Source: Acidimicrobiia bacterium (GTDB lineage: Bacteria; Actinomycetota; Acidimicrobiia; IMCC26256; JAMXLJ01). From it: a stretch of 32,487 nucleotides of DNA. The notes beneath the pieces were generated by a model. It made no database searches. It had not been told where the DNA came from and saw only the letters and a list, made by a program, of their open reading frames with translations. This document shows, in pieces, positions 21,720 through 31,670 of the stretch. Location: NCBI GenBank assembly GCA_024281095.1, contig JAMXLJ010000122.1:1-32487 (forward strand). The letters run 5' to 3'. Both the position numbers and the translations under genes were made by a program. Positions within the stretch are counted from its first letter, which is position 1. Each line of letters begins with the position of its first letter.

Positions 21720-22877
21720 TCAGGAGCGGGGCAGGCCGAGGATGCGCTGCGCGATGACGTTCTTGTTCACCTGTGTCGTGCCGCCGGCGATCGTGACCGC
21801 ACGCGAGTAGACCGCGTCGCGCCCCCAACGGCCGCGGTTGGCGTCGGGGCCCAGCACGTCGCCCGCCACCTCGCCGAGGTGTTGCTCGGTCTCGCTCCAC
21901 ACGAGCTTCGCGACGCTGGACTCGGGGCCCATCGGACGTCCGTGCAACGCGCCGGAGATCGCCCGGTCGGCGAGGAGCTTCAGGTACTCCGCCTCCAGGT
22001 AGACGCGGGCGAGCTTGCGCCGCAGTACCGGGTCGTCGGACGCGTGCCGGCCGCCGCCGATGGGTGTCTGCTTCGCGAGGTTCAGGAGGTCGACCACCTT
22101 CGAGCGCAGCCCGAGGTGCAGGTTCGCGACCCCGGCCCGTTCGTACGCGAGGGTGCTCATGGCGACGCGCCAGCCCTCGTTCAACGGGCCGAGCAACGCC
22201 TCCTTGGGGACGCGCACGTCGTCGAAAAAGATCTCGTTGAACTCGCGCTCGCCGGTGATCGTGACGAGGGGGCGCACCTCGACACCGGGCAGGGTCATGT
22301 CGACGAGAAGGCACGAGATGCCGCGGTGCTTGGGCGCGGACGGATCGGTGCGGACGAGCAGCTCGCACCAATTGGCGAGGTGCCCCAGGGTGTTCCACGT
22401 CTTCTGACCGTTGACGACGAAGTGGTCGCCGTCGAGCACGGCCGACGTCTTCAGCGACGCGAGGTCCGAGCCCGCGTCGGGCTCGGAGAAGCCCTGGCAC
22501 CAGATGTCGTCGCCGCGCAGCATCCGGGGGAGGAAGCGGCGCTTCTGGTCCTCGGTGCCGTGCTCCATGATCGCGGGGGCGATGTTCGACAGGCCGATGA
22601 CGTTGACCGTGCCGGGTGCCTGCGCCCGGTGCATCTCCTCGCTGAAGACGACCTGTTCCATGATGCCGGCCCCGCGTCCGCCGTACTCCGCCGGCCACGC
22701 GATCGCGGCGTACCGCGCTTCGGCGAGGCGTCGGTTCCACTCGCGCAGTCGCTCGAACTGCGCCGGCTCGGAGCTCATCACCGACGCGCCCCGCAGGTCG
22801 TCGGTCAGGTTCTCGGCCAGCCAGCCCCGGAACTCGCTGCGGAATGCCTCGGGTTCCTCGGGATAGGTGAAGTCCAT
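21720..22877 (-). CDS. Acyl-CoA dehydrogenase
   Basis: A 385-residue flavoprotein dehydrogenase. It begins MDFTYPEEPEAFRSEFRGWLAENL, carries SEPDAGSDLASLKTSA and VNGQKTWNTLGH in the middle domain, and ends with IAGGTTQVNKNVIAQRILGLPRS. It resembles the enzyme at 180 in layout but is clearly a different paralogue. It is the last gene of the leftward operon, 22 nt after the 2-oxoacid oxidoreductase beta subunit. That order suggests it oxidises the acyl-CoA made by the oxidoreductase, as isobutyryl-CoA or isovaleryl-CoA dehydrogenases follow branched-chain oxoacid oxidation; this is inference from context. Confidence 0.92.
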   Translation of the reverse strand: MDFTYPEEPEAFRSEFRGWLAENLTDDLRGASVMSSEPAQFERLREWNRRLAEARYAAIAWPAEYGGRGAGIMEQVVFSEEMHRAQAPGTVNVIGLSNIAPAIMEHGTEDQKRRFLPRMLRGDDIWCQGFSEPDAGSDLASLKTSAVLDGDHFVVNGQKTWNTLGHLANWCELLVRTDPSAPKHRGISCLLVDMTLPGVEVRPLVTITGEREFNEIFFDDVRVPKEALLGPLNEGWRVAMSTLAYERAGVANLHLGLRSKVVDLLNLAKQTPIGGGRHASDDPVLRRKLARVYLEAEYLKLLADRAISGALHGRPMGPESSVAKLVWSETEQHLGEVAGDVLGPDANRGRWGRDAVYSRAVTIAGGTTQVNKNVIAQRILGLPRS

Positions 22878-22899
22878 GTCTTCTCGCTCAGTCGATCGG

Positions 22900-23793
22900 C
22901 TACTCGTGTTTGGCCGCGAGGTCGCGGGCTTTCGCGGCGGCGGCCTCCTCGGCCCGGCGCACGTTCTCGGTGTGGAGCTCCTCGGTCGAGCGCACGACGC
23001 CGCCCACCTTGAGCTCGCCCATGATGTGCACCTCGCCCAGGGTCTCGGTCATGTAGTCGGGTCCGTCGGCCGTCGGGATGAACCATCCGGTGGGGCACAT
23101 CGTGAGCACTTCGACGAACGTGAACCCTTCACCGCGGATCTGGGCCTCGAACGCGCGGCGGAACATCTTCTTCGTGCGAGCGATGGCGCCCGCGTTGTGC
23201 ACCGAGCCGCGAGCGACGTAGACCGCGCCCTGCAGCTGTGCGATGAGATCGCCGATGAGGATGGGGTAGCCGTGGTACTGCGCGTCGCGGCCGTCGAGCG
23301 TGTTCTTCGTACGCTGGCCGAGCACGCTCGTGGCGGTCATATGTCCGCCGGTCTCGCCGAACACGCCGTTGTTCAAGAGGATGCACGTGACCCGCTCGCC
23401 GCGAGCGGCGGTGTGCAGGACCTCCTGCAGGCCCTCGTTCACCATGTCACCGTCGCCTTGCAGCGTGAACACGACGGAGTCGGGCAGCATCCGCTTCACA
23501 CCGGTCGCGACGGACGGCGCGCGTCCGTGCAGCGCCTGCACGAGGTCGACGTCGAGCGTGCCCGAGAAGCTCGTGTAGCAGCCGATGCCGCAGACCGCGA
23601 CCGTCTTCTGCGCGACGCCGAGCTCCTGGATCGCCTCGAGGAACACCCGGATGGTGAGCGGCTCACCGCAACCCGGGCACATGTGGTGCTCCTGCGTGAG
23701 CAGCAGGTCGGGCTTGAGGTCGCCCACCTTGCGCGCGCCGTCGGGTGGTCCGGTCGTGTCGAGGACCGGTCCGACCGGAATGTGCGTGCTCAT
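22900..23793 (-). CDS. 2-oxoacid:ferredoxin oxidoreductase, beta (TPP) subunit, VorA/KorB-like
   Basis: A 297-residue thiamine-pyrophosphate subunit. CPGCGEPLTIRVF near residue 38 and GIGCYTSF contribute Fe-S cluster cysteines; the TPP/Mg site is QGDGDMVNEGLQE followed by CILLNNGVFGETGGHM. The segment HGRAPSVATGVKRMLPDSVVF is very like VorA/KorB proteins. With the alpha, gamma and delta subunits it would convert a 2-oxoacid, CoA and oxidised ferredoxin into acyl-CoA, CO2 and reduced ferredoxin. ATG 23793 is supported by GGAG eight bases upstream; it lies 16 nt after the alpha-subunit stop. Confidence 0.9.
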   Translation of the reverse strand: MSTHIPVGPVLDTTGPPDGARKVGDLKPDLLLTQEHHMCPGCGEPLTIRVFLEAIQELGVAQKTVAVCGIGCYTSFSGTLDVDLVQALHGRAPSVATGVKRMLPDSVVFTLQGDGDMVNEGLQEVLHTAARGERVTCILLNNGVFGETGGHMTATSVLGQRTKNTLDGRDAQYHGYPILIGDLIAQLQGAVYVARGSVHNAGAIARTKKMFRRAFEAQIRGEGFTFVEVLTMCPTGWFIPTADGPDYMTETLGEVHIMGELKVGGVVRSTEELHTENVRRAEEAAAAKARDLAAKHE

Positions 23794-23809
23794 CCCATGA
23801 TCTCCTCGA

Positions 23810-24958
23810 TCAGGCGCGGTCGTTGAGGGGGAGCGGAGGAAGGTCGGCGTCAGGGCCGCCGCGGTGCACGGCGAGCACGCGCTCGCGGATGATCTCGGCA
23901 TCGAGCAGCGGGCCCACGCCGAACCCGGAGCCGTCGGTGGAGATGCCGCCGATGGTGACAACCGGTGCCCGCCCGGCGACGCCGAGCCGCACGTCGTCGA
24001 CCATCTGCCCCGCGCACAGCTCGAACGTCGCGACCGTCCGCGCCGCCGCGGCGGCGCCGGCGACTGCGTCGTACGGGAAGGGCCACAGCGTGATCGGCCG
24101 CACGTAGCCGACCTTCTCGCCCTCGGCCCGCAACCGCTTCACCACGTAGCGGACGAACTTGGCGGGCGTGCCGAACGCGACGACGACGGTCTCGGCATCG
24201 TCGACCCATCCCGACTCGACCCGCACCTCACGCCGCTCGATCTCACGTTGCTTCGCGACGATGTTGCGCAGGTGCCGTTCGATCCCCGGCGCCGGTTGAC
24301 CGAGCTTCCCGAAGCCGAGTGGCGAGACGATGCCCGAGCGCCCGGTGCCTCCGAGCGTGCCGTCGAGAGCCCAGTGCTTCGCGGGAACCTCACCGAACTC
24401 GATGCGCTCGACGGAGACGGCTTCTTGCATGTGAGCCGTGAGGTAGTCGCCGTAGACGAGCACGGGATGGCGCCACATGTCCGCGAGGTGGAACGCGAGC
24501 TGTGTGAGCTCGGCCGCCTCGGCGATGTCCATCGGCGCGAGCACGATGTGCCGGTAGTCGCCGTGACCTCCGCCGCGCGTCGCCTGGAAGTAGTCGCCCT
24601 GGCTCCGGGCCATGTTGAACACGACGAGCGGGAGCTCGGCGAGCGTGATCTCCGCGAACGACTCCTGCATCAACGACAGGCCCTGGCCGGTGGATCCGGT
24701 CGCGGCCCGCGCCCCTGTCGCCAGCGCGCCCCATGCCATTCCCACCGCTTCGAGCTCGCTCTCGGCGTTGATGCACACGCCGCCGGCATCCGGCAACAGG
24801 CGCGCGAAGTGCTCGAGCACCTCGGTGAACGGAGTCATGGGATAACCGGCGAAGAAGCGGCAGCCCGCGGCGATCGCGGCGGTGGCGATCGCCTCTGCAC
24901 CTTCCATCAGCCGGCGCGACGACGCCGCGGGCCGAGGCGACTCGGTGGTCGTCGTCAT
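23810..24958 (-). CDS. 2-oxoacid:ferredoxin oxidoreductase, alpha subunit, VorB/KorA-like
   Basis: A 382-residue subunit. MEGAEAIATAAIAAGCRFFAGYPMTPFTEVLEHF is the standard N-terminus; NAESELEAVGMAWGA and STGQGLSLMQESFAEI follow; the segment SQGDYFQATRGGGHGDYRHIVLAP closely resembles VorB of 2-oxoisovalerate:ferredoxin oxidoreductases, which is the main reason to prefer a branched-chain 2-oxoacid over 2-oxoglutarate. A C-terminal transketolase-like domain (TVVVAFGTPAKFVRYVV...PITLWPFP) completes it. The ATG overlaps the stop of the ferredoxin subunit (ATGA). An open frame continues upstream, but that part is the ferredoxin gene read in another frame. Confidence 0.9.
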   Translation of the reverse strand: MTTTTESPRPAASSRRLMEGAEAIATAAIAAGCRFFAGYPMTPFTEVLEHFARLLPDAGGVCINAESELEAVGMAWGALATGARAATGSTGQGLSLMQESFAEITLAELPLVVFNMARSQGDYFQATRGGGHGDYRHIVLAPMDIAEAAELTQLAFHLADMWRHPVLVYGDYLTAHMQEAVSVERIEFGEVPAKHWALDGTLGGTGRSGIVSPLGFGKLGQPAPGIERHLRNIVAKQREIERREVRVESGWVDDAETVVVAFGTPAKFVRYVVKRLRAEGEKVGYVRPITLWPFPYDAVAGAAAAARTVATFELCAGQMVDDVRLGVAGRAPVVTIGGISTDGSGFGVGPLLDAEIIRERVLAVHRGGPDADLPPLPLNDRA

Positions 24959-25257
24959 GAGCTGACCTCCACGACCGTGAGCCGGGGCTCGTCGAAGCGG
25001 TAGACCTCGAAGCAGAAGTCGGGACAGACGAGCTGGCACGCAGCGCAGCCGGTGCAGCCGGGGTGGAGCTGGGGGAACCGGTAGCCGAGATGGTTGACCT
25101 CGGTCGACATGCTGAGCACCTCGGGCGGACACGCAGTGATGCACAGCTCGCAGCCCTTGCACACCTCGGTGTCGATCCGGACGGACCCTCGGCTCCTGAT
25201 CGTCGTCGTAGCCGGAGTAGTTGTCGTGGTCGTTGTCGTGGTCCTCGTGTCGCTCAT
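24955..25257 (-). CDS. 2-oxoacid:ferredoxin oxidoreductase, delta (2x[4Fe-4S] ferredoxin) subunit
   Basis: A 100-residue electron-carrier subunit with two complete cluster motifs, CKGCELCITACPP and CTGCAACQLVCPD (each CxxCxxCxxxCP). An N-terminal run of Thr (nine in a row, then PATTT) is unusual for this family and is encoded by an ACN codon repeat. Both ends overlap neighbours by ATGA: its start with the gamma-subunit stop, its stop with the alpha-subunit start. It passes electrons from the TPP subunit to an external ferredoxin. Confidence 0.9.
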   Translation of the reverse strand: MSDTRTTTTTTTTTPATTTIRSRGSVRIDTEVCKGCELCITACPPEVLSMSTEVNHLGYRFPQLHPGCTGCAACQLVCPDFCFEVYRFDEPRLTVVEVSS

Positions 25258-25838
25258 CGCATCACCGCGGTGGGTTCCCAGGCCGGCACCGTCAGGTGCT
25301 CGACGTCTTCGAAGCCGGCTCTGATCGCGGCCTCGTTGGCCGCGATGTGTTGTGTGCGATAGGGCGGGATGGACTCGCGCATGCCGTCGACGGCCGCGTC
25401 GATGCTCACGAGCCCGGTGATGCCGACGTACGCGCCGACGATGACCATCGACGCGCCGAGCTGGTTGCCGAGCCCGGCCGCGATCTCGGTGGCTCGTATC
25501 CGTTGCACGTGCCACGCGTCGTCGTCGAGTGCACGGGTGAAGGTCGCGTCGTTCACCAGGACGAGCGCGCCCGGCCGGAGCTTCCGGGCAACCGGCTCCC
25601 AGAACTCGTCGTGCATGGCGATCGCCGACCATGTGTGCGAGATCAACGGGGGCGCCTCGAGCGGGCCGTTTCCCACGACCACCGTCGCGTCGGTGTTTCC
25701 CCCGCGCATCATCCCGCCGTACACCCCGAACAGCGCGACGTTGCGACCCTCGAGCGTGGCGGCCCGTGCGATCACCTGCGCGGCCAGCTGCACGCCTTGA
25801 CCGCCGATTCCCGTGAGGACGAGCTCACGCTCGGTCAT
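25254..25838 (-). CDS. 2-oxoacid:ferredoxin oxidoreductase, gamma subunit
   Basis: A 194-residue subunit with the signature ELVLTGIGGQGVQLAAQVIARAA at the N-terminus and VYGGMMRGGNTDATVVV, both diagnostic of the POR/KOR/VOR gamma domain. ATG 25838 has GGAG close upstream. It is the first of the four subunit genes; the order gamma-delta-alpha-beta is as in other split oxidoreductases. The 82-nt gap between it and the TetR gene upstream is GC-rich with GGCC-type short dyads and no clear promoter, so regulator and enzyme are probably on one transcript. Confidence 0.9.
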   Translation of the reverse strand: MTERELVLTGIGGQGVQLAAQVIARAATLEGRNVALFGVYGGMMRGGNTDATVVVGNGPLEAPPLISHTWSAIAMHDEFWEPVARKLRPGALVLVNDATFTRALDDDAWHVQRIRATEIAAGLGNQLGASMVIVGAYVGITGLVSIDAAVDGMRESIPPYRTQHIAANEAAIRAGFEDVEHLTVPAWEPTAVMR

Positions 25839-25920
25839 GTCTCTCCGCTCTCGGCCCTGCGGGCCGGGCCGCTCGGGCCCCGCTCGCTGCTCGGCGGGAT
25901 ACCCGCCTCGCGACGCTCGC

Positions 25921-28140: not shown

Positions 28141-28152
28141 GACGCGGCATGA

Positions 28153-28166
28153 TGACGCCCATGTCA
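28153..28166. promoter_or_regulatory. TGAC-N6-GTCA operator-like dyad, copy 5
   Basis: TGAC-gcccat-GTCA followed by GGTC. It overlaps the ATG at 28161 of the rightward ligase and lies 12 bp from the start of the leftward ligase, so one bound protein could close both genes. The sequence is nearly the same as copy 2 (one difference in the 14-nt dyad). Confidence 0.6.
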
Positions 28167-29696
28167 GGTCAGAGCAACACCGCAGCCGGCGTCCGGGCCC
28201 ACGCGCAGTCGACGCCCGACCAGGTCGCCTTGATCGAGCCCGTCGGCGAAGCAGGAAACGTCCGCACGTACGCGCAGCTCGACGACCGCGCCCGGCGCGC
28301 CGCGCATGCATTGCACGGTCTCGGCGTTCGCCGGGGGGACCGGGTGTCGATCATGGTGCCGAACTCGATCGAGTTCTTCGAGGCCGTGCACGCGTGCGGG
28401 CGACTCGGCGCGGTCGTGGTGCCGATCAACGTGCACTTCAAGGCGGACGAGACGGGATGGATCGTCAGCGACTCGGGCTCGACTGCAGTCGTCGTGGCAC
28501 CCGATCTGTTGCCCGCGCTCGACGGAGTGCCCGACGCACCCCGACTCGTGATCGGCGACGACTACGAGCGCGCGCTCGCGGCCGCCCCCGACGGTGAGGT
28601 CGACGACGACTCGAGGATCGGCGACGCGTGGCCGACCACCATGGCGTACACGTCGGGAACAACGGGGCGGCCGAAGGGTGTGGCGATCGGCGAGGACGAT
28701 TTCCGCCGCCGCGCGATCGGCGTCGCCGCGAGCGGGCAACGCTGGAACCTCGGTCCCGACGACGTGCATCTGCTCGTCGGCCCGTCGTACCACTCGGGCC
28801 CGCTGTTCTGGGCCCAGATGCACCTCGCGTTCGGAGGCAGCGTCGTGATCATGCGCAAGTGGGACGCGGCCGAGGCGCTCGCGCTGATCGAGCGCTTCCG
28901 CGTCACGAACGTGCACATGGTGCCGGCGAACTTCACCCGCATTCTCGAGTTGCCCGACGACGTGCGGAACCGTTTCGACTTGTCGTCGTTGAAGATCGTC
29001 GCCCATGCCGCGGCGCCGTGTCCCGTCCCACTGAAGCGGGCGTTCATGGAGTTCGTCGGGCCGGACAAGGTGTGGGAGTACTTCGGTGCATCGGAAGGCG
29101 GCGGCACCGTGATCAGCCCGCAGGAGTGGTTGGAGCACCCGGGCAGTGTCGGCAGGCCGTTCCCCGGCAACGACTTCGTGGTCCTCGACGACGACGGCAA
29201 CGAGCTGCCCCCGGGCGAGGTCGGCACGATCTACACCCGACCGGCCGAATCCAGCTTCCGCTACCACAACGACGACGCGAAGACCGCGGCTGCGCACCGC
29301 GGAGCGTTCTTCACCGTCGGCGACGCGGGCTACTTCGACGCCGACGGCTACCTGTATCTCACCGATCGGAAGAGCGACATGGTGATCTCGGGTGGCGTGA
29401 ACATCTACCCGCGTGAGGTGGAGGACGCGTTGCTGCGTCATCCCGACGTCGTCGATTGCGCGGTGCTCGGCGTCCCCGACGAGCGTTGGGGCGAGGTGCT
29501 CCTCGCCGTCGTGCAACGACGCGACGGCGCGTCGCTCGACGAGGACGGCGTCGTCGGCTGGGTGCGCGAGCAGCTCGCCGACTACAAGCGTCCGCGCCTC
29601 GTCGAGTTCGTCGACGAGCTACCGCGTGATCCCAACGGCAAGGTACGCAAGCCGAAGCTTCGCGAAGCCTGGATCGCAAATGGCACCGTTGTCTGA
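28161..29696 (+). CDS. ANL-superfamily acyl-CoA ligase
   Basis: A 511-residue AMP-forming acyl-CoA synthetase that makes a CoA thioester from a carboxylic acid, ATP and CoA. All key motifs are intact: AYTSGTTGRPKGVAI (A3), EYFGASEGGG (A5), TVGDAGYFDADGYLYLTDRKSD (A7/A8), VISGGVNIYPREVE, and PNGKVRK with the catalytic Lys near residue 494. ATG 28161 is preferred to the ATGs at 28149 and 28152 because those would put the operator-like dyad inside the gene and because CATGAT 7 nt upstream of 28161 can act as a leaderless -10 box. It is followed 70 nt later by the reductoisomerase-like gene. The acid is unknown; FadD-like, benzoate-like and short-chain ligases share these motifs. Confidence 0.9.
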   Translation: MSGQSNTAAGVRAHAQSTPDQVALIEPVGEAGNVRTYAQLDDRARRAAHALHGLGVRRGDRVSIMVPNSIEFFEAVHACGRLGAVVVPINVHFKADETGWIVSDSGSTAVVVAPDLLPALDGVPDAPRLVIGDDYERALAAAPDGEVDDDSRIGDAWPTTMAYTSGTTGRPKGVAIGEDDFRRRAIGVAASGQRWNLGPDDVHLLVGPSYHSGPLFWAQMHLAFGGSVVIMRKWDAAEALALIERFRVTNVHMVPANFTRILELPDDVRNRFDLSSLKIVAHAAAPCPVPLKRAFMEFVGPDKVWEYFGASEGGGTVISPQEWLEHPGSVGRPFPGNDFVVLDDDGNELPPGEVGTIYTRPAESSFRYHNDDAKTAAAHRGAFFTVGDAGYFDADGYLYLTDRKSDMVISGGVNIYPREVEDALLRHPDVVDCAVLGVPDERWGEVLLAVVQRRDGASLDEDGVVGWVREQLADYKRPRLVEFVDELPRDPNGKVRKPKLREAWIANGTVV

Positions 29697-29766: not shown

Positions 29767-30759
29767 ATGGCGACGATCTATCACGACGGTGATGCCGACC
29801 TCGCCGCGATCGCGGGCTCACGCGTCGCGGTCGTCGGCTACGGCAACCAGGGGCGTTCATGGGCCCTGAACCTGCGCGACTCGGGGCTCGACGTGCAGGT
29901 GTGCGTGCGGGCCGACGAGACACGCGAGCGTGCGGTCGCGGACGGGTTCACGCCGGGCGACCTCGCGGACGCGAACGACGCGGACGTAGTGTGCGTGCTC
30001 GTGCCCGACGACGTGATCGCATCGCTTCCACTCGCGCCGCGCGACGACGCTGTCGTGATCGTCGCGAGCGGGTACACGCTCGCCTTCGGTCGCCTCGACC
30101 CGCAGTGTGACGCGGGGATGGTTGCGCCCCGCATGCTCGGCCCGGAAGTCCGTCGCTGCTACGAGGAGGGCACCGGGTTCATCACCGCCGTGGGCGTGCA
30201 TCACGATGCGACCGGTCGCGCGACGGAGCGGGTGCTCGCGGTGGCCAAGGCGATCGGGGGCCTGCGTCAGGGTGCGATCGAACTGACGCCGCGCCAGGAG
30301 GCGGTGCTCGATCTCGCGGTCGAGCAGGCGCTGTCACCCGCGCTCACGCACGTGAACAACGCGTTCGTGCAGGTGATGCTCGAGCAGGGGATCCCGATCG
30401 AGGCGGTCGTCACCGAGCTCGTGCTCTCGGGGGAGGTGGAGCGCACGTACCGACTTCTGCGCGAGGAGGGATATGCCCGGCAGTCGGAGTACCACTCACC
30501 GACGAGTCAGTACGGCCAGCTGACCCGCCGCGGCCGTTACGACCACCTCGACATGCTCACGACGATGCGCGGGCTGGTGTCCGACATCACCGACGGGCGC
30601 TTCGCCGACGAGTGGGACGCCGAGCGCGACGCCGGTTATCCGCGACTCACGGAGCTGAAGGCACAGTTCGCCGGGCCGGAGGTGCGGGCGTTCGAGGACG
30701 ACCTGCGCCGCCAGCTCGGCCCACGCGTCGTGTCGGGGCAGAAAACGGTTGCTAGCTGA
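29767..30759 (+). CDS. Ketol-acid reductoisomerase homologue with altered active site
   Basis: A 330-residue protein with the length and fold order of class I ketol-acid reductoisomerase (IlvC): Rossmann motif VAVVGYGNQGRSWALNLRDSG (residues 20-40), VLVPDDV, MVAPRMLGPEVRR, and a knotted helical C-terminal domain. Several catalytic positions differ. The AHGFN His is Ser101 (ASGYT); the MVAPK Lys is Arg122; of the four metal-site acids, D182, E186 and E217 can be aligned but the fourth aligns with S221. It is unlikely to be the housekeeping IlvC. It may reduce or isomerise another 2-oxo or acyl substrate, or act only as a reductase. The ATG has a strong AAGGAGG nine bases upstream. It is followed by the PerR promoter, which begins within its last codons. 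Confidence 0.82.
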   Translation: MATIYHDGDADLAAIAGSRVAVVGYGNQGRSWALNLRDSGLDVQVCVRADETRERAVADGFTPGDLADANDADVVCVLVPDDVIASLPLAPRDDAVVIVASGYTLAFGRLDPQCDAGMVAPRMLGPEVRRCYEEGTGFITAVGVHHDATGRATERVLAVAKAIGGLRQGAIELTPRQEAVLDLAVEQALSPALTHVNNAFVQVMLEQGIPIEAVVTELVLSGEVERTYRLLREEGYARQSEYHSPTSQYGQLTRRGRYDHLDMLTTMRGLVSDITDGRFADEWDAERDAGYPRLTELKAQFAGPEVRAFEDDLRRQLGPRVVSGQKTVAS

Positions 30760-30785: not shown

Positions 30786-31244
30786 GTGAAGACGGCCGAC
30801 GAGCTCACCGCCCGTTTCCGTGAGGAGGGGCTGCGGGTCACGCCTCAGCGGCAGTGCATCTTCCGTCTGCTGAGCGGGAACGACCAGCACCCGACGGTGG
30901 ACGCGCTCTACGACGCGGCTCGAGTCGAGATGCCGATGATCTCGCTCAAGACCGTGTACCAGACCGTGAACGACCTTGCGGCCATGGGCGAGGTGACGTT
31001 GCTCGATCTCGGCACCGGGAGCTTCCGTGTGGATCCCAACGTCGAGATGGCACATCACCATTTCGTGTGCTCGCAGTGCGGGCTCGTGCGCGATCTCCCG
31101 CTCGACGTGCCCGCGCTGCCGTTGCCGGGCCGCTACCGTCGCCGCTTCTCCGTCGAGTCGGTCGAGGTGATCCTCCGCGGCCGCTGCGACGAGTGCAACC
31201 GCACGTCACCTGTTCCAAGCCACCGCGACATCGACAAGGAGTGA
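30786..31244 (+). CDS. perR: Fur-family regulator, PerR type
   Basis: A 152-residue metal-dependent repressor. The N-terminal winged helix contains [14 protein letters not shown] and [19 protein letters not shown] (recognition helix). The C-terminal dimer domain has [16 protein letters not shown] (C95, C98) and RGRCDECN (C134, C137), giving the four-Cys structural zinc site. The HxH pair, the Asp of RVDPN and the Asp in CGLVRDLP match the regulatory metal site of PerR; that last Asp rather than Glu favours a peroxide sensor over an iron sensor. GTG 30786 follows a PerR-type box. The rubrerythrin gene begins 3 nt after the stop, so the regulator controls peroxide defence. Confidence 0.88.
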
Positions 31245-31247
31245 GGA

Positions 31248-31670
<423 letters not shown>

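Follow-up and report, generated by a model that had tools for sequence, protein, structure and literature searches.

A ketol-acid reductoisomerase-like gene outside the ilv operon

The open reading frame at positions 29767-30759 (+ strand) raises the question of whether a protein that resembles ketol-acid reductoisomerase (KARI, IlvC), and in which catalytic residues are replaced, is a working isozyme of that enzyme or belongs to a separate branch of the family with a different reaction. The frame lies on the source contig JAMXLJ010000122.1, of which we analysed a stretch of 32,487 nucleotides, hereafter the window. It comprises 330 codons without internal stops, and the encoded protein of 330 amino acids was assigned to the KARI family, and within it to what we call the Ser/Arg branch, using Pfam, NCBIfam, alignments and a phylogenetic tree.

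The two Pfam KARI domains, which represent the NADPH-binding and the C-terminal part of the enzyme, span residues 15-315 and both pass their curated cut-offs (KARI_N with 127.4 bits at a cut-off of 20.6, KARI_C with 64.6 bits at a cut-off of 29.1). The NCBIfam equivalog models of ilvC also match the protein over its whole length, with scores below the respective cut-offs (TIGR00465, 166.8 versus 226.2 bits; NF004017, 192.7 versus 336 bits). The protein is thus a member of the KARI superfamily, yet the curated rule does not call it IlvC. Each of the 44 aligned branch sequences is likewise matched by these models. Comparison of the AlphaFold model (mean pLDDT of 94) with solved class I KARIs revealed Z-scores of 29-34 across 299-324 residues, and the modelled fold is that of a class I KARI. 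This is in line with a sequence-only reading of the window, which had stated that the fold and the GYGNQG and VPDDV motifs of IlvC are kept: both motifs were found and the Pfam domains support the fold. The dinucleotide-binding motif GYGNQG comprises residues 24-29 (29836-29853, +) and reads GYGSQG in canonical IlvC. Promoter-like or convincing terminator-like sites were not found around the gene.

Two catalytic residues are replaced and four metal acids are kept

Residues were compared by alignment with the canonical IlvC of the same genome and eight further canonical copies from the same order. Ser101 (30067-30069, +) replaces the catalytic His of the AHGF(N) motif and Arg122 (30130-30132, +) the catalytic Lys of APKGPG. 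Both substitutions had been proposed from the sequence alone; they hold against the genome's own IlvC and are fixed in 100 of 100 branch members, including a protein of Saccharolobus solfataricus, and occur in none of the nine canonical copies, in which the His and the Lys are invariant.

The third substitution proposed in that reading, a Ser221 in place of the fourth acidic metal ligand, turned out to be an alignment error. Between the third and the fourth acid, the canonical sequence reads E-TLH-E-VKLIVDLIY-E, whereas the branch has E217-LVLSG-E223-VERTYRLLR-E. These two extra residues move the acid to Glu223 (30433-30435, +) and leave Ser221 inside the inserted LVLSG segment (30418-30432, +), as seen in the alignments and the model. 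The nine-residue spacing from the fourth acid to the 'E(E/G)G' motif is identical in the branch and in canonical IlvC, and in the alignments by MAFFT, a profile HMM search against PDB chains and HHalign, the fourth ligand consistently corresponds to Glu223 and Ser221 falls in the insertion. Moreover, a helix of the AlphaFold model is interrupted exactly at residue 221, which fits the expectation for a two-residue insertion at this site. The model of the canonical copy was built from nine close sequences and reached only a low pLDDT of 62 in its C-terminal domain. The other three acids were aligned as the bridging Asp182 (30310-30312, +), Glu186 (30322-30324, +) and Glu217 (30415-30417, +). All four are invariant across 100 branch members; Ser221, Gly222 and Gln248 are likewise invariant in the branch. 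By alignment, all four metal acids are kept, and Glu223 would be expected to bind metal.

A further difference concerns the cofactor loop between beta2 and alphaB, in which Asp50 (29914-29916, +) is invariant (100 of 100) and canonical copies carry a Ser. Acidic residues in this loop mark KARIs that prefer NADH (PMC5940873), and in the cyclopropanol synthase BurG, Asp51 together with Asn48 excludes NADP+ (PMC9359912). By this published rule, the branch likely prefers NAD(H) over NADP(H). Such a preference does not follow from the sequence, since the S. solfataricus protein shares this Asp and yet its solved structures include NADH as well as NADPH complexes.

A conserved branch that accompanies canonical ilvC

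In a tree of 71 sequences, the branch including KARI 2 of S. solfataricus forms one clade apart from canonical IlvC, with an SH-aLRT support of 100 and a long stem. The tree was inferred with a quick method. The S. solfataricus protein and that of locus L051 sit on long end branches, so that their exact placement is uncertain. Branch members were detected in Actinomycetota, Myxococcota, Binatota, Acidobacteriota and Pseudomonadota, with Mycobacterium fragae, M. shimoidei, Acidimicrobiia, Myxococcota, Candidatus Binatota and metagenome-assembled genomes (MAGs) of an Acidobacteria and a Spongiibacteraceae member among the carriers. Of 31 genomes from the order, among them that of the window, 14 have the gene, and the other copies are 66-85% identical to that of the window. 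It was found in 37 of 325 genomes of the class, in 6 of 396 genomes of the phylum sample, in 11 of 190 genomes sampled from a second phylum and in one of 397 sampled Pseudomonadota genomes, that one being the seed. Carriage by phages was rejected, as relatives were not found in viral contigs. Five proteins from Myxococcota (L193-L197) represent a deeper group of the branch; they are 46-49% identical to the window copy and have the same Ser and Arg and the SGE insertion, with variable residues on either side of SGE.

Within one set of 18 genomes, the mean pairwise identity was 66% for the branch proteins versus 63% for canonical IlvC, and the two sets of values correlated with r = 0.76. Branch and canonical proteins thus change at similarly slow rates and largely in parallel, which indicates strong and mostly vertical constraint on the branch. 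That the gene is a decaying or inactive duplicate, as the replacement of two catalytic residues might suggest, is scarcely credible in the light of this conservation between the same species and of approximately 55 positions that are invariant across 44 diverse branch members; we ruled out a decaying copy on the grounds of its IlvC-level conservation.

The genome (4.39 Mb, 98% complete) contains exactly two KARI_C genes. The second one is a canonical ilvC on contig C120, directly preceded by an ilvN-like gene, and a single ilvD is located on the same contig at a distance of approximately 10 kb. The branch gene thus lies apart from ilvBN, as had been noted from the window, with the ilvN-ilvC operon on another contig. 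The sequence-only reading had named the absence of any other ilvC as an observation that would speak against it; a canonical copy is present. In addition, at least one further KARI_C gene was detected in all 20 other branch-carrying genomes examined, which belong to several phyla. Full-length canonical proteins, each with the APK motif, were obtained from 18 of these, while one genome contained a class II-like gene and one a fragment only. Together with the clade support and the scores below the ilvC equivalog cut-offs, this supports the earlier suggestion that the protein defines a branch of the family. The branch is real, conserved and separate within a known family, and an archaeal protein of known structure already shows its Ser and Arg residues.

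A second IlvD was not found in any of the tested genomes with the branch gene. Genomes that carry the branch gene and those that lack it alike have a single dihydroxy-acid dehydratase, apart from two incomplete genomes that show none and one genome (G025) with two hits that are probably fragments of a single gene. Furthermore, ilvB, ilvN and ilvD were never seen next to the branch gene in the neighbourhoods that were read. A duplicated KARI-dehydratase module for a parallel branched-chain pathway was rejected based on the lone IlvD and the absence of ilvB and ilvD among the neighbours seen.

Comparison with characterised members of the KARI family

The nearest solved structure is that of the archaeal 'putative ketol-acid reductoisomerase 2' of S. 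solfataricus (Sso-KARI; PDB 6jcv, 6jcz, 6jd1 and 6jd2). It was the best PDB match of the branch profile with 446 bits versus 279 bits for the next one, albeit with a profile that had included the Sso-KARI sequence itself. Sso-KARI shares with the branch the two substitutions by Ser and Arg, the SGE insertion and an HS.TSQYG motif, while its sequence identity is 36-38%. The structure entries contain Mg2+, NADH or NADPH and the ligand CPD, which we take to be the KARI inhibitor cyclopropane-1,1-dicarboxylate. Binding of Mg2+, of both cofactors and of CPD indicates that a site with Ser and Arg is still a working KARI-type site, and Sso-KARI was reportedly described as an active KARI by Chen et al. 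in 2019.

Canonical class I KARI (IlvC, EC 1.1.1.86) resembles the branch in its fold, the GYGxQG motif, the four metal acids and a substrate-binding Ser. It differs in the His and Lys that are Ser and Arg in the branch, in an SDTAEYG motif that is replaced by SPTSQYG, in the lack of the two-residue insertion before the fourth acid and of the Asp in the cofactor loop, in its location in the ilv operon and in its overall sequence (35-37% identity). The branch protein could nevertheless be a functional KARI isozyme, in which Arg122 and other residues perform the tasks of the Lys and the His, and which yields the 2,3-dihydroxy acids of canonical KARI, perhaps using NADH and in a different setting. 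The retention of all four metal acids and the ligands solved with Sso-KARI speak for such an isozyme. We regard it as possible and on balance doubtful, because a second KARI gene was present in all genomes tested, because genes for IlvB, IlvN and IlvD were not seen beside the branch gene in the neighbourhoods read and because residues that do not vary among the nine canonical copies compared are replaced in all branch copies.

BurG is a KARI-fold paralogue that, similar to the branch, occurs alongside a separate ilvC, has an NAD-type cofactor loop and forms its own clade (PMC9359912). Unlike the branch gene, it is part of the malleicyprol gene cluster, and it reached 249 bits on the branch profile, a score like those of canonical KARIs, compared to 446 bits for Sso-KARI. 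An enzyme that builds or rearranges a specialised molecule via a hidden redox cycle, as BurG does, would be consistent with the Asp in the cofactor loop and with the fold comparison, in which BurG structures ranked first (Z of 33.8), although many KARIs scored within 1 of them. It would also be compatible with Glu223, which is aligned to the fourth of the acidic KARI ligands; the base of BurG is Glu232 (PMC9359912). However, no conserved biosynthetic cluster surrounds the branch gene, its broad and mostly vertical spread over phyla is unlike that of a cluster gene and its nearest relative by sequence is not BurG, which renders a BurG-like role improbable. Genes for gonydiol or malleicyprol biosynthesis were found neither near the window gene nor at the other loci, which outside the window were read by eye. 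The IlvC2 proteins of Streptomyces are likewise second KARI copies with a shifted specificity (PMC4353338); in contrast to the ancient branch described here, they are recent duplicates, with 97% identity to IlvC1 in S. coelicolor.

Gene neighbourhood

The gene is preceded by a co-directional gene for an AMP-binding acyl-CoA ligase (28149-29696, +), which ends 70 nt upstream and corresponds to the acyl-CoA ligase neighbour described in the sequence-only reading. Downstream, a Fur-family regulator (30786-31244, +) starts after 26 nt and is followed by genes for a rubrerythrin (31248-31670, +) and an iron-sulphur protein. The ligase adjoins the enzyme only in close relatives and therefore says little about the reaction. 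The Fur and rubrerythrin genes show shared synteny in Acidimicrobiia. The ligase, Fur, rubrerythrin and iron-sulphur genes were accordingly rejected as operon partners, as they represent local synteny of near relatives, and a partner gene conserved across phyla was not found among 45 dereplicated loci. A MAG labelled as Bifidobacterium breve (L111) contains the branch gene next to the Fur and rubrerythrin genes that typically adjoin it in Acidimicrobiia, and its label or bin is probably wrong.

On the opposite strand, the window encodes another ligase, a TetR regulator, a three-subunit 2-oxoacid:ferredoxin oxidoreductase and an acyl-CoA dehydrogenase. The last three belong to a gene set at 21720-25850 (-), which comprises the acyl-CoA dehydrogenase followed by the complete three-subunit oxidoreductase (POR/TPP domains), its own ferredoxin-like protein and the TetR gene. 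This set is divergent from the ligase pair and conserved within the genus.

Across lineages, cytochrome P450 genes were more frequent among adjacent (6 of 90) than among distant genes of the same loci (4 of 409; p = 0.003), an enrichment that was identified post hoc after 12 families had been tried. The adjacent P450 genes stem from six separate lineages (L069, L074, L084, L093, L121 and L130) and are not orthologous, their products being 25-50% identical between lineages; in six further lineages an adjacent P450 gene was absent. Genomes with the branch gene also showed a higher P450 density than those without it (5.8 versus 4.0 per Mb; p = 0.014, or 0.06 after removal of one P450-free genus). 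We regard this signal as a lead to oxidative catabolism and not as evidence of a partnership.

Proposed function

The reading that we favour, and to which we give slightly less than an even chance, is that the branch comprises Mg2+- and NAD(H)-linked 2-oxoacid reductases or 2-hydroxyacid dehydrogenases which act outside branched-chain amino acid synthesis and in which the alkyl shift is weakened or lost. More broadly, the tests of function leave a Mg2+- and NAD(H)-linked enzyme for a 2-oxo or 2-hydroxy acid, whose isomerase step may be weakened, lost or taken over by other residues. The enzyme would bind two Mg2+ ions at the dimer interface as well as NAD(H), which it probably favours over NADP(H). 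As in KARI and BurG, the substrate acid may be held on the metals through its carboxylate and alpha-oxygen, and a hydride could pass from its alpha carbon to the nicotinamide or back. With the His/Lys pair gone, the substrate would most likely be a compound other than acetolactate, and the enzyme might operate in catabolism or in the specialised metabolism of bacteria rich in P450s. Site mutants of the E. coli KARI reportedly lost the isomerase activity and kept the reductase activity (Tyagi et al., 2005). A precedent is BurG, an NAD+-dependent, neofunctionalised KARI from a genome with a separate ilvC (PMC9359912). Several 2-oxoacids are reduced by canonical KARIs (PMC4353338). Neither the loss of the isomerase step nor the cofactor preference follows from the sequence, as Sso-KARI bears the name of a KARI, has been studied as one and binds both cofactors despite having the same Asp.

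It may also be speculated, although we deem it unlikely, that the branch catalyses a reaction new to the KARI fold, such as one that uses NAD(H) to oxidise, reduce or rearrange a bulky 2-hydroxy or 2-oxo acid released when branched or terpenoid compounds are degraded oxidatively. A new catalytic set would then consist of Ser101, Arg122 and the displaced Glu223.

Branch sequences match generic ilvC models and hence risk being labelled as ilvC in genome annotations and metabolic models, despite scores below the curated cut-offs, as tested for the window copy, and despite the coexistence with a real ilvC. Judged by its residues, the branch appears to be a clean case of a textbook bifunctional enzyme that has dispensed with the His/Lys pair and kept the two-metal site. 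It bears on the evolutionary separation of the two half-reactions of KARI.

Pantoate synthesis in the Acidimicrobiales

The branch enzyme could alternatively be a ketopantoate reductase that stands in for PanE in coenzyme A synthesis. The canonical KARI of Corynebacterium glutamicum has such a side activity (PMC4353338), and a PanE above the cut-off is missing from many Acidimicrobiales. PanE was detected in 3 of the 14 genomes with and in 4 of the 17 genomes without the branch gene (Fisher's exact test, p = 1.0). Replacement of PanE was rejected as there is no complementary distribution, and we consider this role very improbable. Most of the sampled Acidimicrobiales (G000-G030) have no PanE above the curated cut-off, regardless of the branch gene, and canonical IlvC may make pantoate in the PanE-less members of this order.
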